From an uncultured bacterium (GTDB taxonomy: Bacteria > Cyanobacteriota > Vampirovibrionia > Gastranaerophilales > Gastranaerophilaceae): a stretch of DNA of 37,737 nt. The notes below the pieces were generated by a model. That model was not told the DNA's origin, searched no databases, and saw only the letters and a program-made list of their open reading frames with translations. Every line of letters starts with the position of its first letter. Position 1 is the stretch's first letter. Positions 1-34,515 of the stretch are shown in pieces. The stretch lies in contig CASFXY010000014.1 of NCBI GenBank assembly GCA_949298805.1, positions 11,351 through 49,087 on the forward strand, in the 5' to 3' direction. A program made the translations under genes and the position numbers.

Positions 1-266
1 CCATAGGAGTAACTCGGTTCGCATATTTTGTTGTTGACATCTAAGTACCTCTAATATATGTAATTACAATTAAATTTTAAAACAGCTGTTAATGGTATAT
101 CTTCTTTCTTGAGCTTATAAGTTTGCAAAAAATGATTTTATCCCATCCTGCAATATCTTAGTCAGACTTATAAAATCATATCTGCTAAAAGACACCAGTC
201 AAGAGTAAAATTTTACATATCTTTACATTTTATGGTAAAATCTTAAAATCAGAATAAGGAAATTTT
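1..266. other. Intergenic region upstream of the secreted SH3-like gene
   Basis: No convincing gene is seen in either strand. It holds a 10-bp inverted repeat (132-141 with 170-179, ATGATTTTAT/ATAAAATCAT, 28-nt loop) of unknown role, and a promoter region with a tandem TTTACA repeat just before the first gene. A TTGACA at 34-39 lacks a good -10 partner at normal spacing. Confidence 0.5.
212..241 (+). promoter_or_regulatory. Promoter of the secreted SH3-like gene overlapped by an HLR1-like repeat
   Basis: TTTACA (212-217) and TAAAAT (236-241) are separated by 18 bp, giving a start about 20 nt before the ATG at 267. A Shine-Dalgarno AAGGA lies at 256-260. The -35 is also the first half of TTTACATA-TC-TTTACATT (212-229), which exactly fits the cyanobacterial HLR1 consensus (two 8-bp G/TTTACAWW units, 2-bp gap). 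A regulator bound there would contact the -35 and spacer, so repression is plausible. Promoter function is inferred from sequence only. Confidence 0.5.
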
Positions 267-923
267 ATGAAAAAGATAATATTAACAATTTTATTTTTAC
301 TTATTTTCTCACTTAAATCAAATGCCGATGTTACTCCTCAATACCTTTCATCCGTTGGGCATTTTGGGATAGGTATCGCACAAAATGAAAAAAATATAAA
401 AATATATGAAAATCCAAATATCAGCTCAAAAATAAAAGCGCATATAATCTGGAATGAAAAAGGTGACTTATGGTGTAAAAATACAAAAATGCAATGTGAG
501 GCAAAAGATATATTTTTAGGTTTTGCACCTTCAAACAATATTGCACTCTTTAGCGTTGAGGACGAAAACGATAATTGGATTTATGTTTGTTACAACCAAA
601 GATACGGACTTTTTGGTTGGATTAAAAAAAGTGAATACACAAAATATTTGAGCTGGAGTGAATTTTTAATAAGTTACGGCAAAAAATATGGCATGTATTT
701 ATTTAGAGATGTACCCAAAGAATACAAAAGGCTTTATGCTTCGCCTGACAACCAAAGTGCTTGCGTAGACAGTTTTTTCTTGGCTACGCATATTGAACCT
801 TGGCTTATGAGAGGCAATTGGATTTTAGTAAAAGTTGAAAATTATGATGACAAACAAAAAACCGGCTGGCTTCGCTTCAGAAGCGATGACGGCAGGTTTT
901 TCGGTTTTGTTAATTTAAAATAA
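267..923 (+). CDS. Secreted SH3-like protein of unknown function
   Basis: Residues 1-20 are a classical signal peptide: KK, a hydrophobic core of I/L/F, then SNA before the mature part, so export across the inner membrane is expected. The mature protein has two segments resembling bacterial SH3-type beta barrels, around residues 45-125 (ending YGLFGWIKKSEY) and 180-218 (GWLRFRSDDGRFFGF). Proteins of this type often bind peptidoglycan or other wall material, but no ligand can be named here. Four cysteines in the mature part could form disulfides. The ATG at 267 has AAGGA six bases upstream. The stop directly abuts the stop of the convergent GH13-like gene with no terminator between them. Export is well supported; the SH3 assignment is tentative. 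Confidence 0.7.
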   Translation: MKKIILTILFLLIFSLKSNADVTPQYLSSVGHFGIGIAQNEKNIKIYENPNISSKIKAHIIWNEKGDLWCKNTKMQCEAKDIFLGFAPSNNIALFSVEDENDNWIYVCYNQRYGLFGWIKKSEYTKYLSWSEFLISYGKKYGMYLFRDVPKEYKRLYASPDNQSACVDSFFLATHIEPWLMRGNWILVKVENYDDKQKTGWLRFRSDDGRFFGFVNLK

Positions 924-3900
924 TTATTTATAAACATGGAAAAGTTGCATAATGTCCTGATGAGAAACTTTACTTTCCACAAGCGGCTTATAAAATGTTG
1001 TAACGGTATCATTTAAAACAATATTTTTACCGTCTTCGCGTCTTAATTTTCCGTCTGTAACAACATATTTAACCGGATTTCCGTTAGAATCAAGTTCATC
1101 AACAAATTTCGCCTTTGTTTCATCGTATACTTTTCTTTTAAGGTAAGTATCTTTTCCTTGCGAATCTTTAATCCTATATTGAACACCGTTTGAATCTTCT
1201 ATTTTAACGTATGGAATTTCGCAAGTCATATCATACATTCCCTGATAAGGATCAGCCGTAATACCTTTATTTGAAAACACGTGTATAACATTTGAGCCTT
1301 TTTTATCATATTTAAGAATTGCATACAAATCATGCGAGTTTTTCTGAGGCATTGATATTGGTGTACCGCTTGCAATTGCTGATAACCCATATTCTTTATA
1401 TAATGCACAACTTGCTTGAAATCTGTCAAAATATTTTCGTATTTCAGGTTTGTATTCTTTTGAATTTTTATCAATCCATTCACGTCTTAAAAGATTTCTA
1501 TTTTGTTGTGTCACGTTTTTTGAAGCATATTCATAACCGCTCAAACCCATATTATTACCTGCATAGAAAAAAGGAGTGCCGGTAACCGAATTAAGAAAAT
1601 CAGTCATAGCAATCATCTTTGTCAATGCAGGTTTTAAGATTTCAGCAAAAGTTTTGTCTGTTATCTCTTTTGTCTGAGTACGATTAAACCAGATTTTACC
1701 TTCTTTTCTGGCAATATATTGCGCCTGTTCCATAATATCATTTATTGAAATTTCGAATGCAGTTTGCCCAAAAGCCTCTGCGCGTATAAAATCAGGGTTT
1801 GTTTTATCTTTAAATTTACCTGATGCCAAATCTGAAATTGCTTGATAAATAATATCCAGTTTTTCCTTATCATGACCGAGGACTTTTTCAAAACCGTTTC
1901 TGAACATATCACCTGCAGCGACAGCTTTTGAGCTTATCAAGTCATAACTCATTTTATCTTGAGTTATTTCTTTGCCCAAAACTCTGTATGCCGCTTCTTT
2001 TGCGCGTTTAACATCATCAGAATTTATAGGTGTACCTTCAATATTAATTCCAAATCTTGACAAAAATACACCCATATCAAGCGCCAGACCATGCAGCCCG
2101 CGCGGTTTATCATGGTTATCCCAGAAAATATGGCTGTGTGTTATGCTCAATAAAGGTCCGGATGTCAAAAAACCTTCTATATTGGATTTAAGAGAATCCA
2201 TGTTTGCCAAATCGCCTTTTTTGTCACCTGTTTCAAAGTTTCTGGCAAACAAGTTATTTGAAAGTCCGAAAAATTTAGAATACTGAGAACCTGTAGTTGC
2301 GCCTGTTTTTTCATATAACATACGTTCTGCAGTGTCAGGCTCAATATATTTACCCCAATCCATTTTTCTTAACATTTTTGCTCTGTTTTCAATTTCTTCA
2401 TTTGTTGCACCTTCGCCAAGGTCATTTTTTGCTTCAAACCTGTAAATGCCCATATTATTATACAAAGGCCACAAATCGGTAACTTCGGCTACAACATAAG
2501 CAGAAGGATTAATTTCTCTTACATTTTCAACGAACTTACCCCAAAATTCAATAACATCATCCCAAGAATCTTCAAAATTTCTCAGACCGTTTCTGGTAGC
2601 AGTCAAATCGGCAACATCTTTTGCCGCATCAAAACGCCAATTCAAACCACCGCGAGTTTTTTGGACAAATTCACGAGCAAATTTTATACCCTTGTGTGAA
2701 TATTTATCCATATCAATTGCCTCAAGAGCATTGGCAAATTCCCATTCTTTGGCATTGAATAATTGTTTATTGGACAAGTTTTTAACTATGTTTGATACAA
2801 GAGTTTTTGCATCATCATTTGTATATCCCAAACTCACTACTCCGGCTTGATATAAAGAAGCATTTTTAAGAGATTGAGAATTTTTAAGAGTACCTTGTTT
2901 AGAATCAATCGACAATATTTCATCAGGATAAATAGCTTTTGTAAGGGCATACCCGATAATAGTCGGTGCCAAAAGTTCTATTACAGTTTTTCCATACTCT
3001 GTAAGCTTTGTGGTTTCAGCTAAGCTTGACAGGTCAGAGTCGATATTTTTTACTCTTTGTTTGGCAGAACTTTGCCCGTATATTCTTTCCATATCTTCCG
3101 ATGAGATAACATCACTTGCTTCATTTGTCGATGTAAGAATTTCTTCAACATAATTATCTTCCATCTTCATCAAAGCACCCACTATAAATTCTGCAAGCAA
3201 ACCTTTGACTTCAGGGTTATTCATATATTTTCTAAATGCAGGTGTCGAAACAACAGCCTGAAGTTGAGGTGAAAGATCCAAGCTTTCGTATCTGAAATCA
3301 TCTATTAATCTCATTATTGAATATTTAGCATTTTCATCGGTATCATTTTCATTGGGGTTTTCTTCTTCAGCATTTTTGAATATCTGGGCAACTTCTTCCA
3401 TTGGCAAATCGTTTGCCTGTGCAATTTGCGCAATTTCATTTAAACTTTGTTCATCGCCTTTTGTATAGCATTTCGCAATATAAGAAACAAGAGCATTATT
3501 TGCAAATTGGGTCCAATATGTAGCCGTATTATAAAGATAATCTCTTGCATCATAATAACCTTCAACGTTAGACCTTCTTGAATTTGGATTAGAAAGATTC
3601 ATTTTTACAAGGTCGACATTACCATCCCAAAAATCTGCGCCTGCAGCTCTACCTTTTCTTACTAAATCGTAATTTGGGAAAGAAAAGAAATTTTCAAGAT
3701 TATCAATAATTCTGCTATGCTGATCGCCAAATTCTTTCTCATAAATTTTGTGTCTGTCTGTGAGCATTTTGCAATCATAACCGCTAAATCTGTCCCTTAC
3801 GCCTTTATCGGAATAATCAAGCTCAAAAAAGAAAGGTTGTATTGAATCTTGATGAGTTGTGATATCGTAATGGTCATTACTGCGAGGTATATCATAATTT

Positions 3901-4994
3901 GTTATAAGATTTTTTGTATCTCTTTGTTGCTTAGTGCTTGCAAGTCTGTTATCGAAAAATTGTATATAACTTGGTTTATTATGGTCATAACCGGCCATGC
4001 CCATAGGGTTTATAATCTTGAAGCCTATATGTTGATAAGGATCAGTATGTTCTGCATTCGAACTGTGGATTTTATCGGGAAAAATACCTATTTTTAAATC
4101 ACCCTTAATTTTAAACCAATCATAATAAGGTGATTTTCTGCCATTCTTTAGAACATCTTGGAAAAAGGGGCTTTGAATACTTTGCGAAGTAAATGCGCCG
4201 TCTGCAATGTACCCTTTGCCTTCCTTATAAAGATTAACAAGGACCTTTTTAAACACTGCCAAAGACGGAACTCGGAAGAAATTTTCTCCCCAATATTTAT
4301 GTGAAGATTTTGAATCGGCACCAATATAAGGATTTGACATAACATAACGGTATGGGGAAAGTTCTTCATGTTTATTTGTAAATATACCGTCTAAATCCCC
4401 CAATGCCTTGTTAAAATGATTTCTTATAAATTTTGAACGATCAATGCCTCGTCCGCTTGTATAAGAATCATAAAATACATGTATTGCAGAGCCTGATTTT
4501 GGTGTGACTCCCATTTTATTGGATATTATTGTAAAATCACCAAATTTTTCATCATGAAACCTTGTTCCGGGATCAAAAATGTATTTTTTTGTTTCTATAT
4601 CACCGAAAACATTATTTTGATTTTCCGCATCAAGGTTTTTATAAGCTTTTTTTGCATCTTCTTTATCTACGAGTCTGAATCTGTAACCCATGTATTCACT
4701 TAAATAAGGATTACTGATAACTGTACTTCTGGGATACTCGGTAACACCGTATGCCCTGAAATCATTATAGGATTTATTTATTGTTACAGGAGTGCTTACA
4801 CTCTCATCAAGTTTAAAACCTCCTTTGCCATCTTCGACAACAGGACAAACTTCAAGCAAAATATCATATTTATCTTTATCGTATGGAGGAACATAAAAGC
4901 TGTATTTATCATCAATTGTATGTTCTAAGCCTTTAAAAGATGTTTTATTAATGTTTTTTTTGTCGTTTTGTATCTCTATTGCAGAAATTTTCAC
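924..4994 (-). CDS. Giant GH13-like (alpha-amylase superfamily) protein with long insertion
   Basis: A protein of about 1356 residues with GH13 hallmarks. RFDAAKD gives the nucleophile Asp at about 789, AEVTD the acid/base Glu at about 837, and NHDKPR the third Asp at about 962. A degraded region I (GKGYIADGAFTSQS, about 259-272) lacks the usual N-H pair and lies some 520 residues before region II, where about 100 is normal; an acidic helical segment fills the gap. The N terminus carries KTSFKG (residues 17-22). Activity on alpha-glucans is likely but not certain given the altered region I. I prefer the GTG at 4994-4992, with AAGG nine bases upstream, over the TTG at 5021, which has no Shine-Dalgarno. 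It is last in a minus-strand operon, 97 bp after the other GH13 gene. Confidence 0.75.
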   Translation of the reverse strand: MKISAIEIQNDKKNINKTSFKGLEHTIDDKYSFYVPPYDKDKYDILLEVCPVVEDGKGGFKLDESVSTPVTINKSYNDFRAYGVTEYPRSTVISNPYLSEYMGYRFRLVDKEDAKKAYKNLDAENQNNVFGDIETKKYIFDPGTRFHDEKFGDFTIISNKMGVTPKSGSAIHVFYDSYTSGRGIDRSKFIRNHFNKALGDLDGIFTNKHEELSPYRYVMSNPYIGADSKSSHKYWGENFFRVPSLAVFKKVLVNLYKEGKGYIADGAFTSQSIQSPFFQDVLKNGRKSPYYDWFKIKGDLKIGIFPDKIHSSNAEHTDPYQHIGFKIINPMGMAGYDHNKPSYIQFFDNRLASTKQQRDTKNLITNYDIPRSNDHYDITTHQDSIQPFFFELDYSDKGVRDRFSGYDCKMLTDRHKIYEKEFGDQHSRIIDNLENFFSFPNYDLVRKGRAAGADFWDGNVDLVKMNLSNPNSRRSNVEGYYDARDYLYNTATYWTQFANNALVSYIAKCYTKGDEQSLNEIAQIAQANDLPMEEVAQIFKNAEEENPNENDTDENAKYSIMRLIDDFRYESLDLSPQLQAVVSTPAFRKYMNNPEVKGLLAEFIVGALMKMEDNYVEEILTSTNEASDVISSEDMERIYGQSSAKQRVKNIDSDLSSLAETTKLTEYGKTVIELLAPTIIGYALTKAIYPDEILSIDSKQGTLKNSQSLKNASLYQAGVVSLGYTNDDAKTLVSNIVKNLSNKQLFNAKEWEFANALEAIDMDKYSHKGIKFAREFVQKTRGGLNWRFDAAKDVADLTATRNGLRNFEDSWDDVIEFWGKFVENVREINPSAYVVAEVTDLWPLYNNMGIYRFEAKNDLGEGATNEEIENRAKMLRKMDWGKYIEPDTAERMLYEKTGATTGSQYSKFFGLSNNLFARNFETGDKKGDLANMDSLKSNIEGFLTSGPLLSITHSHIFWDNHDKPRGLHGLALDMGVFLSRFGINIEGTPINSDDVKRAKEAAYRVLGKEITQDKMSYDLISSKAVAAGDMFRNGFEKVLGHDKEKLDIIYQAISDLASGKFKDKTNPDFIRAEAFGQTAFEISINDIMEQAQYIARKEGKIWFNRTQTKEITDKTFAEILKPALTKMIAMTDFLNSVTGTPFFYAGNNMGLSGYEYASKNVTQQNRNLLRREWIDKNSKEYKPEIRKYFDRFQASCALYKEYGLSAIASGTPISMPQKNSHDLYAILKYDKKGSNVIHVFSNKGITADPYQGMYDMTCEIPYVKIEDSNGVQYRIKDSQGKDTYLKRKVYDETKAKFVDELDSNGNPVKYVVTDGKLRREDGKNIVLNDTVTTFYKPLVESKVSHQDIMQLFHVYK

Positions 4995-5091
4995 AGTAAT
5001 TACCCTTGTTATTCCCTTCAATTTTATTAAAACATCTGAATTTATAAAATTGCCTTTTATGTATAAAGTTATTTTACAGATGTTAATTTAT

Positions 5092-6882
5092 TTAAGCCGC
5101 TTTTGTTTGAAAATTTTGCCTCATTACATTTTGAGGTTTGGAATAATACTCAATATCAGGAGTACTAATCTCAAAAACATGAGCCTTTAAAGGTCCTAAA
5201 TCAACGGTTAAAACATTATTTTCTTTTTGGAAATAACTTGGTTGAGAATAAAAAGGTAAAAGATTATTAAGCTCTTGAGTTGCTTTAAATCCGGGGATTT
5301 GTATCTTTGCGCTTCTTCTCAAGTTTGCATTCCTATTACCCACAAAAAGTAATGTTTTCCCGTCTTTGTGTCTGGCATAAGCAATTATTTCGGGGTCATT
5401 TGTTTCAAGTTTTATAAATGAACCGTACTGAATTATATCTTTATATTCAGGTTTAATATTGCCGCTTCTGATATTGTGAGCAGCTTTTATAAATTCCTGA
5501 ATTTGCGGAAAATCTCCGCCTGGTTTTCTTGAGAAATTAAATATATCAAGTCTGCCCGTATGCACCGTACATTCATTGTTATCAGTTTGAGAATTAGGTG
5601 CTTGAGCATGGTCATAAGGATATAAGAAATAATCACCGGTTTGAACACCGTCTATATAATACGGATTAACCATAGGAAGTGTATTTTGCAGAGCAGTTGT
5701 AAACATTACCCAAGGCGCACCGCCATAATACATAGGGCTTTGGTCATCATGGGTTGTCATTGAACCTATTAAAGATTTTGGCTCATGCAACCTGTTAGAC
5801 ATATCAATATTTTCTTTCATATAACCAAAAAGGTCGTCTGCTTTTGTCCATTGATTAAGTATATGGAATTGACCGTAATAAGAATTGAAACCGCCTCTTA
5901 ATTGATCTTCAGGTCTATCATAGGGCATATTAAGCTGAGGCGAAGCATCTTCATGCGTATAAGATTCTGCCAACCAACCGAATTGGGGATCTAATGTATG
6001 TGAATACGGGATAATAACATTCCAAAATTCAATTGGTTTTGCACGTGAAACATCAGCCCTTATACCATCTATTCCAAGTTCAACACATGCTTCTACATAT
6101 TTTTTATGCATATCAAGAAGTTTAGGGTTTAATTTTCTTTCACCTTCATTGTCCCAAACTCTAAACATTCTTATATCTTGCCAACCTTGGGGGGTTTTGT
6201 CCTGTCCGTCTTTTTCTTTTGCCATTAAATCAGGATTTCTTTTTGCAAAATCAAGACTTGCACAGGAAGGTAAATCAAGCATAACGGAAATACCGCGCTT
6301 ATGACATTCGTCAATAAATATTTTAAAATGATCCCAAGCACTTCCCGGTGTATTGGGGTCTTTTAGATTTGGATCAACCGCAAGTTTGCCGTTATCTTCA
6401 ACAAATTTATCCGGCGCATAAAGTGAGCCAGCAAGGCCCATTGCAAGAGTTTTGCCTGTGGGGTGGATAGGGAGAATATGCAATGTATTTATGCCCATAT
6501 CCTTAATCTCGTCAAGCCTGTCTATTGCGTTTATAAAATTGCCTGATTCTTCGCCTATTTGAATAAGACCATTGCCGTCCAAATCCTTGGCATTCATTGT
6601 TCTTGGAACAACTCCCAAGATTGTTGCCTCATTGTTTTTCAGCATGTCCCTAAAATGATTTTGCCATGTTATATTTTGCGCATTTGCATTATTATTAACC
6701 GCCTGTGTTTTTGCAACAGGAAGAATTTGACTTGTTTGTTTAATTATATACTTGCTAAGCATTGGATTATAGGGTAAATTTTGAGCATTATCAACCTGTT
6801 GAGGTTGTGTTTGCTGATTTTTCACAAGTGTCTTTTGAGGATAAACAAGATATTTATTTTGAGTAATATTATTTACTTGCAT
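5092..6882 (-). CDS. GH13 family alpha-amylase-like glycoside hydrolase
   Basis: A 596-residue cytoplasmic enzyme expected to cleave or transfer alpha-1,4/1,6-glucosyl bonds. Visible motifs: NTLHILPIHPTG (about 132-143) in an early strand of the barrel, MLDLPSCAS (201-209, a modified region I), GIRADVSR with nucleophile D277, WLAES with acid/base E306, and TTHDD with D379/D380. The C terminus resembles the beta-sandwich domain C of the family. Residues 100-111 form a textbook EF-hand-like calcium loop (DLDGNGLIQIGE). There is no signal peptide; the first 60 residues are Q/N-rich and probably disordered. The ATG sits behind GGAGGAG and overlaps the upstream gene by 14 bp, so translation is coupled. 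Exact specificity cannot be read from the sequence. Confidence 0.85.
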   Translation of the reverse strand: MQVNNITQNKYLVYPQKTLVKNQQTQPQQVDNAQNLPYNPMLSKYIIKQTSQILPVAKTQAVNNNANAQNITWQNHFRDMLKNNEATILGVVPRTMNAKDLDGNGLIQIGEESGNFINAIDRLDEIKDMGINTLHILPIHPTGKTLAMGLAGSLYAPDKFVEDNGKLAVDPNLKDPNTPGSAWDHFKIFIDECHKRGISVMLDLPSCASLDFAKRNPDLMAKEKDGQDKTPQGWQDIRMFRVWDNEGERKLNPKLLDMHKKYVEACVELGIDGIRADVSRAKPIEFWNVIIPYSHTLDPQFGWLAESYTHEDASPQLNMPYDRPEDQLRGGFNSYYGQFHILNQWTKADDLFGYMKENIDMSNRLHEPKSLIGSMTTHDDQSPMYYGGAPWVMFTTALQNTLPMVNPYYIDGVQTGDYFLYPYDHAQAPNSQTDNNECTVHTGRLDIFNFSRKPGGDFPQIQEFIKAAHNIRSGNIKPEYKDIIQYGSFIKLETNDPEIIAYARHKDGKTLLFVGNRNANLRRSAKIQIPGFKATQELNNLLPFYSQPSYFQKENNVLTVDLGPLKAHVFEISTPDIEYYSKPQNVMRQNFQTKAA

Positions 6883-9472
6883 TTACTCCTCCATTTTCTT
6901 TTTTGACTTTATACAAATGTTCATTCTTTGCTTTTCCAAAGAAAAATTGAGCAAATAAAGTAACGCCTATAACAATGCCTGTTAAAGTACCGAATATTCT
7001 CATCCAATGTTTATCGTTAAACATTTTACTTGCGGTGTCCATAAACAATTCTGTTCCGGATTTACCCAACATTGAATATTGAGTTTTTTGCAAAGCTTGC
7101 GTGCCGACACCGTCAATTTTATGACCCGCCCTTGCAAAATCAGCCATTTGAGCATATATTTTGTAGAAATTTTCTCTTGTTGCTACAAGTTTTTGTATAA
7201 GAGATTTGTCACAGCTTTCATAAGTCAACTTGGAAAGTCCGCTGCGCATTGCATCTTCACCTTGAGCACCCGGTTCTCCGAACAGAAGTTTTATAATTTT
7301 AACTGCAAATTCTCCGTTTCCGTCAGCATAAAATTTATTTGCAAGATCATTCATTGAGCTGTCATAAATTATACTGCGACAAATTTTAAGAACTTCTTCG
7401 CTTATTTCATCTTCGCCCGATAAATATTTCCAATAATTTTTAAGCTCGCCAGTTTGAATGCGTCTTTCAAAATCAGCCTCTAGCAAATATCTGTGACCTG
7501 TCGCCCTTATGCCGGCACCTTTTTCTTCTATAAACAAATTGATAATTCTCTTAAACATAGGCGCCCTTCTTAGTGAATCAACATCGGCACCTTTTGCCTT
7601 AAGCAATTCTGCTAATTTTTCCGCAGTGACATTTTCTGCCCCGTATTCTTTAATAAATGTGTCATAGGAAACACCAAAAGTTTTTTCAATTAAGCCTTTT
7701 AAAACTTCAATATCAATGCCGGACTGAGCCTTTAAAACTGCAAGAGGGGAATCTTCAGGCACATTATTAAATGCTGAAATAAGACCCTTATATACTTTTT
7801 CTTTTATCGAAGAAAGGAGTTTATCAACAGTACTTGCTTCAAATTTTGCCTGTCTTGAAGAAATATCGGAAATAAAATTAGCATAATTTGTTTCATCACT
7901 TGCAATTTGCGTAAAGCGACCTTGCAAAATGCCTCTTGCAGAATCAAGAGAATTTCTTGCAATATTAAGTTCATCGTATGGAATTTTAAGTGTTTGCATA
8001 AGTGCATTAACCGAATTTAAGTGTATGCTTGTATGCAAAGATTCATATTTTTGCCCCGCAAGAGCGTTAATAAAATCAGCATAAGTCGCAACTTTTGCAC
8101 TTATAGGTCTTGTTTGTTCGCTATAAATCTGCTGCAATGTTTTACATAATTTTTCCACAATTTCAGGTGTCGCAAATTGTCCTGCCAGCGTTTCTTCATA
8201 AGCCTTGGTAAGTCTTTCGATTTGTTTTGGTTTTGCACCTTTAATTGCTTCTTGGAACATATTATCAAATTGTTCAACCGTTATATATTTAATTTTATTT
8301 TGTTCACCTCTTGCAGCACGCAATTTTCTTGTAATCTTAACTATGAAATCATTTAATTCGGTATTACCCTGTATATCGCTAATTCCATTTGATGAATATT
8401 TTTTCATAACAGGAATAATTTTATCTATCTCAAGCATGCCTGAAACACCTTCTTGAGATTTAAGAGCCCCATAACCTTGTTCTATTTGTTTTCTTATTTT
8501 AGGACCAATACCGCCAAGTTCACCTATAAGATTTGCATCGTCGACATCTTTTGCATTATTTAGGGCACTAAAGGGATCAAGAATGCTTACAACCTTTCTG
8601 TAGAAGCTTTCATCAGGTTCTGTTACCCTTGTTTCAAGAATATGTTTGAGTTCTTTAGCTTCTGCAAGATTAAAACCTTTTTCTAATTGTCTTCTTGTTG
8701 CTATTTCTTCAAGTCCATCTGCTTGTTTTAATATTTTATTATACTGAGAGTTAACAATATATTTTGTAACACCTCTTTCTGCAAGATTACATATCATTGA
8801 AGTTAAAAGCGGGCTAAAACCAGCGCTTAACATCCAAAGAGTATTACCCTGAAGCGCAATTGTACGCATTTTTTCTTTAGTTAATTCGCGGTACTCGGGA
8901 TTTTTCTTGTCAATTCCCATTTTATCCGCAATTTTGTCAATTTCTTCATTGGAATATAAATCCGGAACAAATTGGTTATCAAGATATAATCTTTTTTTAC
9001 GTCCTTGAGCATCTATATATTGTTGGCGAATATCAAAACCAAAACGCATTTTCAACGGTTCAGAAATTAAGAGCCTTGGCCATGCCGCCATTGTTGCAAA
9101 AAATGCACCTGCGCCCAAAAACTCCATTATACCCTTTGTTCCTGTGCCACGCTTAGTAAAAAGATAAGATGCAATTCCCAAACCGCCAAGTTTCATGCCT
9201 AAATCGTTAAATCTGCCAAGTTGATTGTCGTTAGATTTTCCTGTAACCAGAGCCTTTCCCAACTCAACAATATCTTTACCGGTATCAGCAGTAGCAATTA
9301 TGAAACTTGAAACAGGATTACGTGTTTTAAGCAGATACGCTCTGTGCTCTTGAGGTGCAATAGAATTCGCATTAAGGACAAATGCTCTATACACATCTTG
9401 TTGTGCAATTTCTTTTCTTAGTTGCTGTTCTAAGTATCTGCTTTGAATTGAGGTATTAATATTATTGTTCAT
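6869..9472 (-). CDS. Large membrane-anchored protein of unknown function
   Basis: An 867-residue protein with no family I recognise. Hydrophobic segments lie near residues 95-140 (GGLGIASYLF, then LGAGAFFATMAAWP) and around 215-230 (LWMLSAGFSPLLTSM), and a clear final one sits close to the C terminus (IFGTLTGIVIGVTLFAQFFF). In between are about 550 mainly helical, charged residues that look soluble. Helical hairpin-like text around KLGGIGPK hints at a helix-hairpin-helix-like turn but is not enough to call DNA binding. The start overlaps the upstream stop as TAATG, and its last codons contain the Shine-Dalgarno of the following GH13 gene. The tight coupling suggests it works with the two glucan enzymes, perhaps as a membrane platform; that is inference. 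Confidence 0.7.
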   Translation of the reverse strand: MNNNINTSIQSRYLEQQLRKEIAQQDVYRAFVLNANSIAPQEHRAYLLKTRNPVSSFIIATADTGKDIVELGKALVTGKSNDNQLGRFNDLGMKLGGLGIASYLFTKRGTGTKGIMEFLGAGAFFATMAAWPRLLISEPLKMRFGFDIRQQYIDAQGRKKRLYLDNQFVPDLYSNEEIDKIADKMGIDKKNPEYRELTKEKMRTIALQGNTLWMLSAGFSPLLTSMICNLAERGVTKYIVNSQYNKILKQADGLEEIATRRQLEKGFNLAEAKELKHILETRVTEPDESFYRKVVSILDPFSALNNAKDVDDANLIGELGGIGPKIRKQIEQGYGALKSQEGVSGMLEIDKIIPVMKKYSSNGISDIQGNTELNDFIVKITRKLRAARGEQNKIKYITVEQFDNMFQEAIKGAKPKQIERLTKAYEETLAGQFATPEIVEKLCKTLQQIYSEQTRPISAKVATYADFINALAGQKYESLHTSIHLNSVNALMQTLKIPYDELNIARNSLDSARGILQGRFTQIASDETNYANFISDISSRQAKFEASTVDKLLSSIKEKVYKGLISAFNNVPEDSPLAVLKAQSGIDIEVLKGLIEKTFGVSYDTFIKEYGAENVTAEKLAELLKAKGADVDSLRRAPMFKRIINLFIEEKGAGIRATGHRYLLEADFERRIQTGELKNYWKYLSGEDEISEEVLKICRSIIYDSSMNDLANKFYADGNGEFAVKIIKLLFGEPGAQGEDAMRSGLSKLTYESCDKSLIQKLVATRENFYKIYAQMADFARAGHKIDGVGTQALQKTQYSMLGKSGTELFMDTASKMFNDKHWMRIFGTLTGIVIGVTLFAQFFFGKAKNEHLYKVKKENGGVNASK

Positions 9473-10506
9473 TATTGCACCTCATATTCTTTCTTCAGAT
9501 TTATTTGTGTGTCAGGTTGATTATCCGCAACTCTAAAACCGCGCGTTGCATTATATATACCCAAAATTGTAGAAGCCAAAGCACCAAAAATAATTGTTCT
9601 GCCGACTATTTTTGAACCATAGGTAAATTTCAAATTATTTCCGTTATACAAATCAACAAAACTGTTGCCTAAAGTTGTTGCAAATTGTTTAGCCAAGCTC
9701 AATGCTTTTTCTTTTCTTGTACCGCTTATCGGAATTGAAATTTTCCTTTCAAAAGGCTCTTGTGCGGCAAGCGCTACACCTAAAGCAGCCCATATAAAAG
9801 AGCTTATTGATTTTGCAGAGCTTGATTTTACTACAACCTCTTTTACCTTTTCTTGCACTGTTTGTTCGGGGGAATTAAGAGGGTCTTTAAAGCCCATTTT
9901 TTTAGCTATTTTATCCCACCACAAATGCCTGTTGCCTTGTTGCTCTCCCATTTTATTTATTAAATCAAAACGCGGAAAATCAGCACTTTCAAAAACTCTA
10001 TGGTATTCAATCCTTGTTAAATCTTTATCCCCCGGGTGATCCGGCAATTCCGTAACTACTTTTTTATATGGCATTTCAAGGTCTACACCGGTTTTTAGCT
10101 GAACTCCTTTATTAATTAATTTTGAACCGAGCCACTTACCTATCGCGTAGAATACAACTCCATAAGCCATTTTTCTTCCGGAAATTGAAGCAAAAGCTCT
10201 ATCGGGGCTTTTAAAGTTTTTATTTGCAGCGTTGAATAAAGCTATAAGCATAGCTGAACCGGTAATGTTAGGTATTAGTCCCATTGACAAAAATTCATAA
10301 AAATTTGAATTTCGAGAACCCTGCATACCTTTAGGTGCATAAATAAAAAGGCTGTTAACAAGCTTATCTGCAACAATTCTTGCGCCGGTAAGGGGTGTTT
10401 TTTTAATTATTCTGTCCGAAGTGCTGGATAACTTCTTATGCGCATCTCCTGAAGCGTAATAAGCATTTTTAGGTATATTTGCTGAATTAACCTTACCTGT
10501 TTGCAC
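9472..10506 (-). CDS. Multi-pass membrane protein of unknown function, first gene of the glucan operon
   Basis: A 344-residue protein with about four hydrophobic segments: MGLIPNITGSAMLIALF (around 90-107), AYGVVFYAIGKWLGSKL, SFIWAALGVALAAQ and IIFGALASTILGIY. There is no cleavable signal and I recognise no family. The start is GTG at 10506-10504; GGAG lies 13 bases upstream, which is long, but no better in-frame start exists before residue 60. It shares a TAATG junction with the next gene, so the two membrane proteins are made together, and it heads the four-gene operon ending in the GH13-like proteins. The promoter, TTGTTA-17-TAAAAT, is overlapped by a tandem TTTACA-type repeat. Confidence 0.7.
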   Translation of the reverse strand: MQTGKVNSANIPKNAYYASGDAHKKLSSTSDRIIKKTPLTGARIVADKLVNSLFIYAPKGMQGSRNSNFYEFLSMGLIPNITGSAMLIALFNAANKNFKSPDRAFASISGRKMAYGVVFYAIGKWLGSKLINKGVQLKTGVDLEMPYKKVVTELPDHPGDKDLTRIEYHRVFESADFPRFDLINKMGEQQGNRHLWWDKIAKKMGFKDPLNSPEQTVQEKVKEVVVKSSSAKSISSFIWAALGVALAAQEPFERKISIPISGTRKEKALSLAKQFATTLGNSFVDLYNGNNLKFTYGSKIVGRTIIFGALASTILGIYNATRGFRVADNQPDTQINLKKEYEVQ

Positions 10507-10579: not shown

Positions 10580-10609
10580 ATTTTAAAAAAATTTACATTG
10601 GTTAACAAA
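10580..10609 (-). promoter_or_regulatory. Promoter of the glucan operon with HLR1-like repeat
   Basis: On the minus strand TTGTTA (10608-10603) and TAAAAT (10585-10580) are 17 bp apart. Read on the plus strand, 10592-10609 is TTTACATT-GG-TTAACAAA, two 8-bp units at 10-bp period with one mismatch from the HLR1 consensus in the second unit. The repeat covers the -35 and spacer. It also lies about 70 bp upstream of the divergent NTPase gene. Confidence 0.5.
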
Positions 10610-10677: not shown

Positions 10678-13029
10678 ATGGAAACATCTGATTTTCAATT
10701 TAGTATTGAGATTATAGACAAAATTTATAATTTCTACAACTCGACAGATGAGCTATTGCTTTTGTGCGGTTTTTCAGGTTGTGCAAAAAGTGAAATTGTA
10801 AACAAAACTTTAGAAAATCCTGATGAAGATACTCTTATCTTCAGACATTTATGTTTTGAAAACACGACTATAGATGATTTTTTACTGAATTTTTACGACT
10901 CTTTTCGCAAGTATTCTCTTGAAAAAAAAGTCAGTCTTAAAAAAAGCATGGGCGAAAGTTTTAAAAACAAAGTAAGTTTTTATTTTAAAAATATTGATAA
11001 AAAATGCATTATAGCAGTAGATAACTTTGAACTTGTAAAAGATAATATTGAAATTTTAAATTTTTTACACCATATTGCAAGTTTTGAAAATACAAAGCTT
11101 GTATTAATTTCTAAAGAAAATAATATAGACTTTTTTATAAATCGGGAATTACCCTCACAAATCATTGAAATTACACCATATACCAAAGAAGCATTCAAAG
11201 AAAAAATTAAAAATGAAAATGTTGATATTGACGAACAAACACAAGATAAGCTCTTTGAATGCACGCAAGGACACAGACTTTATTTTAGAATGATTTCAAG
11301 ATATTGCGAAATAACAGGAATAAAAATACCGGAATTACTTTTAGAATACGAAAAGCGCGAAAATGATTTTGAAAATTTTATTACCTTAAAACTTATTTCA
11401 CTTATACCAAGTGTTTATTTTCAATTCTTAAAAAATCTCAGCAGCATAAATCATGTGGTCAGTACTGATTTTATTAAATACTATAATCTTGGTGACATAA
11501 AGCAAATTGAATACCTCGAAAGAAACTATTTAATTTCTAAATATGACAACAATATTATTTTGAGAAACTATTTTAAGCAATATTTTGCACAAACCCTTTC
11601 ATTGCAGGAAAAATATGAAATTTTTTCAAATCTGGTTAACATTTATGAAGAAGAACTCACAAAAAGCCCGCGCGATAGGCTTCTAAGACTCTCCAGAGAA
11701 AGCATAAGAAAACAAATTGAAGTTCTTGAGAAAAATATACCTGCAATAAAAAAACAGTCAAATATTTCAAATAATAATTTTTCATACATCTCCCTTTCTC
11801 AAGAAGGTTCCAACCCTTGGTTTGATAAAAAAGAAATGGACAGAAAACAAAAATATCTTGATAAAAAAAGAGAATTGCAAAATAAAAAACTCACACCCAA
11901 AAAAATTACTCTCAGCGAAGAAGATGCCATTATGCTTAAAGAATACAGGCAGAAAAAATATGAAGAAGAACGAATTGAAAAAATTAAAAATGAAGAATTT
12001 AATTTTTTGGAAGAATTTAAAAAGGCTGATGAACTTGAACAAAATTATCAATACGTACAAGCTAATGAAATTTTATCAAACCTAAAAAGCAAAACCGATG
12101 ACACTCAAACAAAAATAGAAATCCTTGAACACCTTGCGCGCAACAGTGAAAAATTGAACAATTACGAGCATGCCCTTGATTATTATACACAAGTAAGTTC
12201 TTTACACCTTTTATTAAAGGATTACGAAAAATATTTCAAAACAGTTCTTGAAGTTGCTGATTTATATAAAAATTTATACAGATTTTCAAGTGCAAAAGAC
12301 GAATATTTTAAAATTATAAATTCCGAACAAGTAATAAATAATTCATTAAAAGCACTGGCATACTTGGGTCTTGGTGATGTTTTCGAAAGTGAAAATTCTA
12401 TAGAAAAAGCTCTTGAATACTACCATCTTGCAGGAAATTTTGCAAATCCTCAAAATGCAAGTACACTGTGCGAAATTTATTTTAAAACTGCAATTTTATA
12501 CGATGATATGCACGACTTTGATAATGCAAAAGAATTTTATACGAAAAATATAAACACAAGTTATGACACGACACAAAACAAATGGCTTTCGCAAAGCTAC
12601 ATTAATTTAGGCCTTATATATTCGTATGAAAACAATATCAACGAAGCAAAAAATTATATTAAGCTTGCCCTTGAAACTGATAAAAAAGACAAAAATCAGG
12701 CAGGAATATATTTTGCAGCACGCGAACTTTCAAAAATTTATGAAGTTGAAAATCTTGAGCTTGCAATTGATTATCTGAAAGAAGCTCTTGAATGCGCAAA
12801 ACAAATACATGATGAATTTAAAGAGGCATTTGCATATCTTGAATTAGGCGATTTATATTATAATTTTAATCAGGACGAACTTGCCCTTATAAGTTTTTTT
12901 GAAGCAAAAAAAGCTTTGGGAGAAAATATTCTTGAAGAAAATAAACAAATAATAGAACAAAGAATAAATGATATGAAAATAAAAATGCTGCCTTCGGAAT
13001 TTCAAAGAATAGAGGCAAATTATGTTTAA
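10678..13029 (+). CDS. P-loop NTPase with C-terminal TPR repeats (STAND-like)
   Basis: A 783-residue protein. Walker A is GFSGCAKS at residues 31-38 and Walker B is CIIAVDNFE with D115, followed by a sensor-like strand ending LVLISKE. Residues up to about 330 look like the helical half of an AAA/STAND-type ATPase. Residues 370-450 are very rich in K/E and likely coiled coil. From about 455 to the end at least six TPR units are visible, such as ALDYYTQVSS, ALEYYHLAGN, AKEFYTKNIN and AKNYIKLALE. The layout suggests an ATP-dependent switch that senses a partner through its TPRs; the partner is unknown. It overlaps rsmG by 8 bp, so the two are translationally coupled. It appears leaderless. Confidence 0.75.
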   Translation: METSDFQFSIEIIDKIYNFYNSTDELLLLCGFSGCAKSEIVNKTLENPDEDTLIFRHLCFENTTIDDFLLNFYDSFRKYSLEKKVSLKKSMGESFKNKVSFYFKNIDKKCIIAVDNFELVKDNIEILNFLHHIASFENTKLVLISKENNIDFFINRELPSQIIEITPYTKEAFKEKIKNENVDIDEQTQDKLFECTQGHRLYFRMISRYCEITGIKIPELLLEYEKRENDFENFITLKLISLIPSVYFQFLKNLSSINHVVSTDFIKYYNLGDIKQIEYLERNYLISKYDNNIILRNYFKQYFAQTLSLQEKYEIFSNLVNIYEEELTKSPRDRLLRLSRESIRKQIEVLEKNIPAIKKQSNISNNNFSYISLSQEGSNPWFDKKEMDRKQKYLDKKRELQNKKLTPKKITLSEEDAIMLKEYRQKKYEEERIEKIKNEEFNFLEEFKKADELEQNYQYVQANEILSNLKSKTDDTQTKIEILEHLARNSEKLNNYEHALDYYTQVSSLHLLLKDYEKYFKTVLEVADLYKNLYRFSSAKDEYFKIINSEQVINNSLKALAYLGLGDVFESENSIEKALEYYHLAGNFANPQNASTLCEIYFKTAILYDDMHDFDNAKEFYTKNINTSYDTTQNKWLSQSYINLGLIYSYENNINEAKNYIKLALETDKKDKNQAGIYFAARELSKIYEVENLELAIDYLKEALECAKQIHDEFKEAFAYLELGDLYYNFNQDELALISFFEAKKALGENILEENKQIIEQRINDMKIKMLPSEFQRIEANYV

Positions 13030-17238: not shown

Positions 17239-19080
17239 TTATTTACCTGCAACAAAAATATTACCGCAAACAGATTTTACACCATATTTCATAGCAAAAT
17301 CTCTAAGCGCATATTGTGCTTCTTTTGAATCAAATACAATGCCACGCTCTAAATCAGTGTTGTTTGCAAAGTCCTGAAGTACAAATTCAGGCATACCATA
17401 GTATTTGTTTTCAACAGATGTGCCATGTAATCTTACTTCATTTGCAACATCTTTAATTAATTTTAAATATGCTTCTGCCGTACCGATATCATCCCAAACA
17501 GCAGGTCTGCCGCCTTTTGCTTCAAGCGGAACTGTATATACCTTCATTTTGTTGCCTTTTTCATCAAGCAATTTGCCTTCATTTGCCAATTGAACTATTT
17601 TAGGCATTACATTTCCACCAAGACCGGTAGCTTCAGGCGTCAAAATGCCTTGAGCCATTAATATTTTTTGCGCTTCTTTGCTCAAGAAATACAAGCCGGG
17701 GTTAGCCAAAAATTTATTTTCATCGTTCGGATCAATTGCAGATTGGACTTTTCTAAACTCATCCATAGCTTTATCGTAGTCACCACGTTGAGTAAAATCG
17801 TTAGGCATTGGCGCATCCGATGTATATTTAGGTTTTTCCAAAAATTCCTTAATTTGCAAATTTCCTCTTTCATCTTGTTCAATACCCAATAACCCGAAGG
17901 ATTTTGCTCTTTGAGGATTGACAGGATAATAAGGAATAACAAGAGCAGCATCAGGCAGCGTTTTTAGCGCATTATAAACGCGGCTTATATCGGCATTTGT
18001 AAAAATATCCGCATTTAAAATAATAGAATCGCGGTCGTTTCTGATAATATCACGTCTTAATCCCTCAGCTATCGCACCGCCATCTGTTTTATATCTTGAA
18101 ACATAATAAACATCTTCGCCTTCTTCAATCTCATGATTTTGACTCAAATATTTAACATCATCACTGCCGTCACCTTTTAAAATCCCTGCAGATGCAGCAA
18201 GATTCAATGTAGTTCCTATTATGCGATATCTGTCATCTGTAGGTAATTTACCCGAAGGTTTATTTTCATGTTCTCTTGTAATATTAAAAAATCTTTCACC
18301 AAAACCACCTGCAGGAATAATAATTGTCGGATCATTTTCTTCAACAACATCAACAAAGTCACCCCTTATTGCTTCCTTTTGCAGACCTGACTCAACATAA
18401 GAATTTACCGCGTTGAGCGTTCTTGGTTCTTTATTCAATGTTGTAATTACCGTTCTTCCTTTAAAAGATACATCTTTATGTCCTCCGGTTAAAAGTGTTT
18501 CATATTGACCCGGCATTTTAAATTCAAATCCATTGCCGATTAACTCAGAACCTGCGAACATTTTAATTGCCTTGCCATCTAAAGAAGCATCTTTAATAGT
18601 AATTTCAGGCATAAATTTACCTTGTTTATATGTGACAACAGGCATTTCAGCCCTAGATGCATTAACCTTGCCTATAAAAATGACATTTCCTTTATCGTTT
18701 GTAACGGTATACTTATTTATATTGCCTATTGATTTTTTTGTAACATTTAATCCCGCAGCATTAAATTTTTCATAACCTTCAGGCATTTTCCTTAAAGGCA
18801 AATTTATATCCTCAGGAATTGCAAGTAGGTTAGGGATTCTTATTTCCTTGGGAGTAATAATTGATTTTTCAAAATCGCTAAGTTCGATTGAGCCTGCAAA
18901 ATTAACAGTTTTTGCCACTTTTATGCCATTGAGTGCTTGATAGGCACTTGCTAAACTTGAAGCCTGTACCTTTGTACCTTCAAAATTAACATTTTGACTT
19001 TTAACCGGTGCGGTTACACCATTTGAACGAGTTGCCCAATTTTTAACATTTACGGGGCTTAAAGTTACTTTTTGTATCAT
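17239..19080 (-). CDS. GlgC-like sugar-1-phosphate nucleotidyltransferase with tagged N-terminal extension
   Basis: A 613-residue protein. Its C-terminal two thirds is a nucleotidyltransferase of the ADP-glucose pyrophosphorylase type: IIIPAGGFGERF (about 254-264), KPSGKLP, YRIIGTTLNLAASAGI matching the GlgC FRIIDFALSN region, NADIFTNADISRVY, and IKEFLEKP. It would make NDP-glucose for glycogen synthesis, but the substrate is inferred. About 250 residues precede the domain. They contain three xFxG motifs, at 30-35 (NVNFEG), 59-63 (VNFAG) and 204-208 (VSFKG). The ATG at 19080 has AAAGGA eight bases upstream and is preferred over the start at 19143. It is monocistronic, ended by a strong terminator and preceded by an exact HLR1-type repeat. 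Confidence 0.75.
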   Translation of the reverse strand: MIQKVTLSPVNVKNWATRSNGVTAPVKSQNVNFEGTKVQASSLASAYQALNGIKVAKTVNFAGSIELSDFEKSIITPKEIRIPNLLAIPEDINLPLRKMPEGYEKFNAAGLNVTKKSIGNINKYTVTNDKGNVIFIGKVNASRAEMPVVTYKQGKFMPEITIKDASLDGKAIKMFAGSELIGNGFEFKMPGQYETLLTGGHKDVSFKGRTVITTLNKEPRTLNAVNSYVESGLQKEAIRGDFVDVVEENDPTIIIPAGGFGERFFNITREHENKPSGKLPTDDRYRIIGTTLNLAASAGILKGDGSDDVKYLSQNHEIEEGEDVYYVSRYKTDGGAIAEGLRRDIIRNDRDSIILNADIFTNADISRVYNALKTLPDAALVIPYYPVNPQRAKSFGLLGIEQDERGNLQIKEFLEKPKYTSDAPMPNDFTQRGDYDKAMDEFRKVQSAIDPNDENKFLANPGLYFLSKEAQKILMAQGILTPEATGLGGNVMPKIVQLANEGKLLDEKGNKMKVYTVPLEAKGGRPAVWDDIGTAEAYLKLIKDVANEVRLHGTSVENKYYGMPEFVLQDFANNTDLERGIVFDSKEAQYALRDFAMKYGVKSVCGNIFVAGK

Positions 19081-19181
19081 TAGAGTTTTCCTTTCAACTA
19101 CCCTCTCACAACTAACAATCTTTTTCTGCGAATAATAACGCATGATAATAAAAACACGTAAATATATTTTTTGTCTTACAA

Positions 19182-19199
19182 TTTACATTTTTTTACAAT
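19182..19199. promoter_or_regulatory. HLR1-like tandem TTTACA site upstream of the GlgC-like gene
   Basis: TTTACATT-TT-TTTACAAT is an exact match to the HLR1 consensus, with units at 10-bp period. An extra half-like CTTACAAT precedes it at 19175-19182. It starts 102 bp upstream of the ATG of the GlgC-like gene and lies immediately after the stop of the thymidylate-kinase-like gene, so it should serve the former. Confidence 0.5.
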
Positions 19200-26604: not shown

Positions 26605-27333
26605 TTAATCTTTTACCCAATATTTATCAAGCCATTTTGTCGGTTTAATATACCTAAAGCCCATTTTACCAAAATACCCTTTATAAGCTTGTTTTGGATT
26701 TGGTTTGCCATGGAATATAACAATTTTTGCCTCATCGGGGTCTTTTGGAACTTTAAACCAGCACATTGGAAATTTATGTAAACAACATCTTTTAAAACTT
26801 ACGCACCAATTTTTATCCCAATATTTTAAAATACCTTTTTCATACATTTCATAAGTTAAAAAAGCCTGTTCATTTTTAAAATGTTTTCTTATTGCAGTAC
26901 CCAAACCGTAAAAATGTTCCAAAACTTCAGGATGTTTGCCTATCTCAAAACGAAAAACGGAAGAATTGCCTATAATATCATCAGGAAAATCCCAATCTTT
27001 TATAATTAAAAAATCACCTTCTTCTTCAAAAAAAGCATCAATGTTTTGTCTTATAACAATATCTAAATCCAAAAACAAAGCTGTTCCTTTTAAATCATAT
27101 AATTCTTTATTAAATACAGTAAGCTTTTTCCACATCCTATCGGGTATTCCGTCCTCTTTTAGCGCAGGTATAGGAAAAGTTTCAACATTTTCATCAATCC
27201 CCTGAGGATTATCCGTAAAACAAATAAATCTGTGAGGTACGGTTATGTTTTTTTGTACCATTTTATACAAGCGATTTACATAGGATGAATCAAATTTTTC
27301 GCCCCATTTCATGCAAATTATATTTTTGTCCAT
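26605..27333 (-). CDS. Glycosyltransferase-like protein with DxD motif
   Basis: A 242-residue protein resembling GT-A fold transferases. Features are an N-terminal strand pattern (NIICMKWGEKFDSSYVNRLY), HRFICFTDNPQGI, and a DxD-type motif in ALFLDLDIVI near residue 97 that would hold the metal and nucleotide sugar. DWDFPDDIIGNSSVFRF and FHGKPNPKQAY follow, as in family 8-like and related bacterial transferases. The sugar and acceptor are unknown. The ATG at 27333 has AAGGGAG five bases upstream and is preferred over the start at 27363. It follows a hairpin that separates it from a small upstream gene. Confidence 0.65.
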   Translation of the reverse strand: MDKNIICMKWGEKFDSSYVNRLYKMVQKNITVPHRFICFTDNPQGIDENVETFPIPALKEDGIPDRMWKKLTVFNKELYDLKGTALFLDLDIVIRQNIDAFFEEEGDFLIIKDWDFPDDIIGNSSVFRFEIGKHPEVLEHFYGLGTAIRKHFKNEQAFLTYEMYEKGILKYWDKNWCVSFKRCCLHKFPMCWFKVPKDPDEAKIVIFHGKPNPKQAYKGYFGKMGFRYIKPTKWLDKYWVKD

Positions 27334-34497: not shown

Positions 34498-34515
34498 TTT
34501 ACAAAACTTTACACA
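34498..34515. promoter_or_regulatory. HLR1-like tandem TTTACA site upstream of the tagged-protein operon
   Basis: TTTACAAA-AC-TTTACACA, two 8-bp units at 10-bp period with one mismatch (C for W) to the HLR1 consensus. It lies 69-86 bp upstream of the ATG at 34429. On the minus strand a TAAAAT at about 34484-34489 could be the -10. Confidence 0.5.

Follow-up and report, generated by a model that had tools for sequence, protein, structure and literature searches.

The tandem TTTACA-type sites that stand at four places in the window, that is, in the whole 37,737-nucleotide stretch analysed here (C14:11351-49087 of a genome of 1.68 Mb in 32 contigs), are real and do not result from chance. They are very probably genuine HLR1 elements bound by the OmpR-family regulator RpaB, in a lineage reported to lack photosynthesis. 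This interpretation, already put forward in a preliminary description, is supported by the consensus, the 10-bp phasing, the confinement of the sites to intergenic regions, their conservation and the presence of an RpaB ortholog. The clearest targets appear to be rpoB for site 212 and, for site 10592, an amylase-like operon that begins at 10506.

The consensus was KTTACAWWNNKTTACAWW (18 bp, KTTACAWW-N2-KTTACAWW). All four sites of the preliminary description were found where it had placed them (Table 1), those at 212 and 19182 being exact and those at 10592 and 34498 deviating by one mismatch each, and their intergenic placement was borne out in every case. When up to one mismatch was allowed, the window contained six matches vs. 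0.55 expected, a number reached in none of 100 shuffles. Of the two additional matches, 10582-10599 extends the 10592 pair by a half-site, and 26765-26782 sits within a gene and was taken as chance.

Table 1. Positions of the HLR1 elements in the window and of the genes and putative promoters next to them.
Feature	Position	Strand	Basis or remarks
rpoB, 5' part with its start codon at 40; continues beyond the window	1..40	-	Homologs, of which the one at L306 has Pfam RNA_pol_Rpb2 domains
Putative sigma-70 promoter of rpoB	175..202	-	TTGACT (197-202), 16-bp spacer, TATGAT (175-180), 9 bp from HLR1
HLR1 element, exact consensus	212..229	+	Divergent rpoB / ORF 267 promoter
Putative -10 element TAAAAT of ORF 267, with upstream TG	236..241	+	Promoter would be overlapped by HLR1
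ORF 267, 218 aa, downstream of HLR1	267..923	+	Pfam: no match
Putative operon gene 3, distant alpha-amylase superfamily	5092..6882	-	Matches alpha-amylase among PDB sequences (E 1.5e-12)
Putative operon gene 1 below the 10592 site	9472..10506	-	No Pfam or NCBIfam match
Possible third half-site, TTTAAAAA	10582..10589	+	10 bp from the 10592 pair
HLR1 element, one mismatch (TTAACA half)	10592..10609	+	85 bp 5' of the minus-strand operon
GlgC-like nucleotidyltransferase	17239..19080	-	Pfam NTP_transferase; 101 bp after the 19182 site
HLR1 element, exact	19182..19199	+	Motif scan of the window
ORF, 219 aa	33770..34429	-	Pfam: no match; the 34498 site lies 68 bp upstream
HLR1 element, one mismatch	34498..34515	+	Motif scan of the window

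The phasing was analysed in an 800-kb sample (48% of the genome) composed of contig stretches picked irrespective of the sites, with gene boundaries set by a simple self-written gene caller, according to which 11% of the sample is intergenic. There were seven exact KTTACAWW pairs with a period of 10, every one of them between genes; each of the other periods from 8 to 40 gave at most one intergenic pair. With up to one mismatch, period 10 accounted for 25 intergenic pairs compared to a mean of 4.9 and a maximum of 11 (at period 21) for the 22 remaining periods in the 8-30 range, and inside genes for four pairs compared to a mean of 8.8 at other periods. Over the whole genome, 59 matches with at most one mismatch were obtained vs. 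33 for the reversed pattern; 52 of them are intergenic (some at contig edges), seven are intragenic, and the exact matches are intergenic without exception (15/15). The scan of intergenic vs. coding DNA with controls, as proposed in advance, clearly showed intergenic enrichment, with the period-10 phasing standing out. A different phased repeat, TTGCAC/GTGCAA, also with a period of 10, came out at the top of a k-mer scan and lies near contig starts (C5:197-350, C3:401-520).

The exact motif was found in all 146 family genomes searched, with 3079 matches (from 4 to 71 per genome); the controls gave 390 (period 11) and 360 (reversed pattern), and both were exceeded in each of these genomes. At loci of other genera, 71 of the 72 exact sites are intergenic by our own caller (three sites being counted twice). 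In the sister family f2 of the same class, the genomes G199, G209 and G216 contain one, none and none of the exact sites, respectively, and give RpaB matches with E of about 1e-105. For G216, which has the same GC content (34%), no period-10 excess was seen in 371,560 bases, and neither eight chosen half-sites nor a k-mer scan revealed a convincing phased repeat there. In a draw of 194 genomes across the phylum, the exact site is absent from 18, and an RpaB-like match was obtained in all 194. Weaker RpaB matches were given by four of the 85 family genomes in this draw (G041, E 4e-47; G045, E 2e-75; G068, E 6e-45; G080, E 3e-49). HLR1 is abundant in these four despite the weak matches, which may reflect assembly gaps or true loss.

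Alignment of the orthologous promoters showed that no genus genome compared has lost site 212 or 10592 and that most retain the sites 19182 and 34498; the lack of conservation that would have refuted the preliminary description was not seen. Among 13 genus genomes (our own included), site 212 carries one mismatch in one and is exact in the other 12. As to its target, ORF 267 indeed adjoins the site, but the promoter is divergent, and in two further genera HLR1 has rpoB as its neighbour. The putative rpoB promoter is kept in six aligned relatives, and the same geometry, with 9 bp between HLR1 and the promoter, recurs at rpoB of another genus (L306); a third genus (L277) has a similar rpoB promoter at 39 bp from HLR1. 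The place of the -10 element of ORF 267 is occupied by TAAAAT in 12 of the 13 aligned genus promoters and by TAGAAT in L193.

All 13 genus relatives fetched have site 10592 as the identical one-mismatch type, in the same orientation and at the same place (within a few bases), with variation mainly at the two free spacer bases; the pair that uses the 10582 half-site is within one mismatch in four of the 13. Of its neighbours, the minus-strand amylase-like operon from 10506 is most likely the target, and not the plus-strand gene at 10678. In three other genera, an exact HLR1 with this orientation precedes the homologs of operon gene 1 at a distance of 72-93 bp. A second protein further down the putative operon also has a distant structure match to the alpha-amylase superfamily (E 1.5e-6). 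The minus strand from 924 to 10506 is an operon-like run encoding four proteins, none with a Pfam match at E 0.001.

Site 19182 was followed in 15 genus genomes (our own included), where it is exact in seven, has one mismatch in five and is lost in three. For site 34498, the corresponding figures in 14 genus genomes, again with our own, are two exact, nine with one mismatch (three of these nine shifted by one half-site) and three with two mismatches. Rows in which the C-terminal part alone matched (L198, L184), row L155 and weak paralog matches were dropped. The gene below site 19182 more likely starts at 19080 than at 19143: the gene caller picks 19080, and several relatives have no ATG at the place of 19143. 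On its product, the glgC model gave E 8e-11, far under the model cut-off. In four genus relatives, G115, G279, G095 and G036 (L151-L154), the match to the 17239-19143 gene is limited to roughly the N-terminal 90 residues. The open frames concerned have about 700 codons, and this N-terminus seems to be joined there to a different body.

The OmpR-family regulator predicted in the preliminary description is encoded in the genome as an RpaB ortholog. Four OmpR-type winged-helix matches were obtained, one of them marginal, and the full-length regulators comprise RpaB and two others. A 248-aa protein on contig C19 (13825-14568, minus strand) passes the NCBI RpaB equivalog NF045944.1 with 364.2 bits vs. 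a cut-off of 330, and the two other full-length regulators stay under this cut-off (210.7 and 173.7 bits). Among the matches listed, our RpaB is 69-73% identical, over nearly the full length, to its counterparts in other classes of the phylum, whose genomes in the draw would mostly be Cyanobacteriia. Of 15 readable sequences from these classes, 13 share the recognition segment DTRVVDVHISRLR unchanged and the other two differ from it by one residue, with L231 and L133 left out of the comparison. One of the paralogs, L033, is RpaA-like by our own reading, being under every model cut-off; a one-mismatch site lies 42 bp upstream of its gene (C3:7207-7224, L021). With regard to NblS, two sensor kinases were scanned, and neither reached a cut-off among the 25 models listed for each.

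Homologs of RpaA, RpaB and NblS in Melainabacteria are described in the available parts of two earlier reports (Di Rienzi 2013, PMC3787301; Soo 2014, PMC4040986). The former, in the same part, reports the lineage to be without photosynthesis genes and suggests another function for RpaB/NblS in Melainabacteria, which it leaves open. The source of the DNA had been guessed to be a non-photosynthetic cyanobacterial relative; this was right as to the lineage, and the absence of photosynthesis is taken from what is available of PMC3787301. The literature provided no report on RpaB binding sites in Melainabacteria/Gastranaerophilales, within a coverage from which subscription papers and preprints were mostly missing.

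In an AT-rich genome, sites of this kind might be chance tandem copies of a -35-like TTTACA, all the more because single KTTACAWW in the 800-kb sample is already 2.6 times denser between genes than inside them. We find this very unlikely and, for the site set as a whole, refuted: period 10 alone stands out, and between genes only, orthologous promoters keep the sites, and the excess of the exact motif over both controls recurs in every family genome. Single one-mismatch sites may nevertheless be chance, and some of the 59 in our own genome, such as the seven intragenic ones, probably are. Another candidate, mentioned in the preliminary description with reference to Bacillus PhoP, is that the sites are PhoB/PhoP-type boxes serving phosphate genes, Pho boxes being likewise direct repeats bound by OmpR-family dimers. 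Their typical period, however, is 11 bp, and in the family genomes the count at period 11 is close to that of the reversed-pattern control and far from that at period 10. Moreover, no regulator in the genome reaches the PhoB cut-off, and no phosphate genes were recognised among the nameable targets (most targets being unnamed), so that this alternative is left unsupported and seems to us extremely improbable.

The element might also be genuine and yet be bound by the RpaA-like L033 or by the L032 paralog, or be shared among several regulators. Both proteins have OmpR-type winged-helix domains, and the L033 gene itself is preceded by a site; we nonetheless consider this unlikely, since their DNA-binding domains share only 32 and 36% identity with that of RpaB, neither reaches the RpaB cut-off, and this exact motif is assigned to RpaB in the available part of a review (PMC13421787).

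Elsewhere in our own genome, an exact site lies ahead of a 4-alpha-glucanotransferase gene, and one-mismatch sites precede the genes for FliD, the RpaA-like regulator and a ribonucleotide reductase. A flagellin and a hook/rod protein have exact sites ahead of them in other genera. When 29 proteins (nine from the window and twenty from elsewhere, the last ten picked partly for looking recognisable) were scanned with Pfam, nine were over a family cut-off and 20 were not. The proposed link to genes for tagged proteins turned out to be weak in our own genome, where a loose pattern was present in 9 of 20 targets vs. 122 of 698 in the background, and absent in relatives (7 of 35 targets).

In other genera, 36 of the 50 sites (within 400 bp) whose TGTAA strand points toward the gene lie 60-99 bp before the start codon, compared to 12 of 35 sites in the opposite orientation. 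Several of the toward-gene sites are followed by a promoter of the sigma-28 type. Of 40 toward-gene targets at 55-130 bp from the start, 21 have one of the elements TAAAG, GCAA or GAAAT 15-19 bp downstream, compared to none of 35 opposite-orientation targets, which were taken up to a distance of 400 and often represent the other side of the same site. We counted composites of HLR1 and a sigma-28-type promoter (TAAAG-N14..16-CGA) with any gap from 2 to 32 bp between them. This pattern gave 205 matches in 66 of the 146 family genomes vs. one match with the reversed control; 90 of the 205 come from the genera g25 and g30, and because related genomes are in the set, the composites are not independent events. 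Among the 150 matches listed, the gap is 17 bp in 112, 16 or 18 bp in 10, 27-28 bp in 18, 5-7 bp in 8 and of another length in 2. The clustering at 17, 27-28 and 5-7 bp points to one preferred helical face.

FliA/sigma-28 promoters have the consensus TAAAGTTT-N11-GCCGATAA. Sequences like this, with the 11-bp spacer, were found in the composite sites of other genera, and a FliA/WhiG sigma factor is present in all 146 family genomes, in 140 of them over the model cut-off (the same model gave matches in 10 of 14 control genomes, over the cut-off in three). What distinguishes the composites from FliA/sigma-28 promoters is the RpaB-type site that precedes them at a fixed helical phase. To our knowledge, no pairing of an RpaB site with a sigma-28 promoter has been described, and no literature naming RpaB together with FliA was found.

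Most probably, RpaB would bind the head-to-tail HLR1 sites as a dimer. Transcription typically starts about 7 bp after the -10 element, and the start positions used here were placed at this distance from the -10 element of the promoter-like sequences. With respect to such starts, the element at site 212 would lie at about -61 to -44 of rpoB, and it would cover the promoter of ORF 267 at about -37 to -20; in the composites with the 17-bp gap, HLR1 falls at about -68 to -51. According to the available part of the review, cyanobacterial RpaB activates from positions -66 to -45 and represses from positions -38 to +23 (PMC13421787). Comparison with these windows suggests that rpoB and the composite promoters would be activated by RpaB and ORF 267 repressed. 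The phase-locking of many HLR1 sites to sigma-28-type promoters further suggests that in other genera the RNA polymerase activated by RpaB would contain a FliA-like sigma factor.

RpaB has been described as a global regulator of photosynthesis genes. With the HLR1/RpaB (Ycf27) system of Cyanobacteriia, the system considered here has in common the 18-bp consensus, the 10-bp period and an orthologous regulator with a conserved recognition helix. The positions estimated above fit the reported windows of activation and repression, and the one-mismatch site before the rpaA-like gene has its parallel in the binding of cyanobacterial RpaB upstream of rpaA, as stated in the available part of PMC13421787. 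In contrast to Cyanobacteriia, the candidate targets here are rpoB and genes for amylase-like, glucanotransferase, ribonucleotide reductase, flagellar and unnamed proteins, the lineage is one without photosynthesis genes as far as the accessible text of PMC3787301 goes, and many sites in other genera are locked to sigma-28-type promoters. Compared to the accessible portions of the reports on RpaA, RpaB and NblS in Melainabacteria (PMC3787301, PMC4040986), the lineage and the regulator are the same; the presence of RpaB was already published, whereas no binding sites, targets or promoter architecture are mentioned there.

These comparisons leave room for a tentative and still doubtful scenario in which RpaB and HLR1 predate oxygenic photosynthesis. 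The ancestral circuit would have tied the supply of RNA polymerase, carbohydrate storage and the production of flagellar or secreted proteins to a cell-state signal, activating promoters of both the sigma-70 and the sigma-28 type from one helical face; the recruitment of photosynthesis genes to it would have come later. With a site conserved in 146 family genomes and with defined promoters and geometry, the role of RpaB without photosynthesis becomes testable, and candidate targets for this are given here. An RpaB-type site coupled in this fixed way to a sigma-28-type promoter would be, as far as known, a new promoter architecture.

Our own genome contains one exact composite (C7:36073-36118), located before a 51-aa reading frame, and none in the window. 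In half of this genome, 12 sigma-28-like promoters are intergenic, and five of them are preceded at 6-18 bp by a sequence resembling HLR1 with 0-3 mismatches, in one case in the other orientation. The 51-aa frame (L305:1579-1731, corresponding to the one on C7, as well as L304, L294 and L312) is conserved in three genera, directly after composites. A second promoter-like class was observed at L265, L273, L278, L284, L085 and L088, where GCAATTTT or GAAAT stands at the same distance from HLR1 and is followed in most cases by a TTTATATA-like run.
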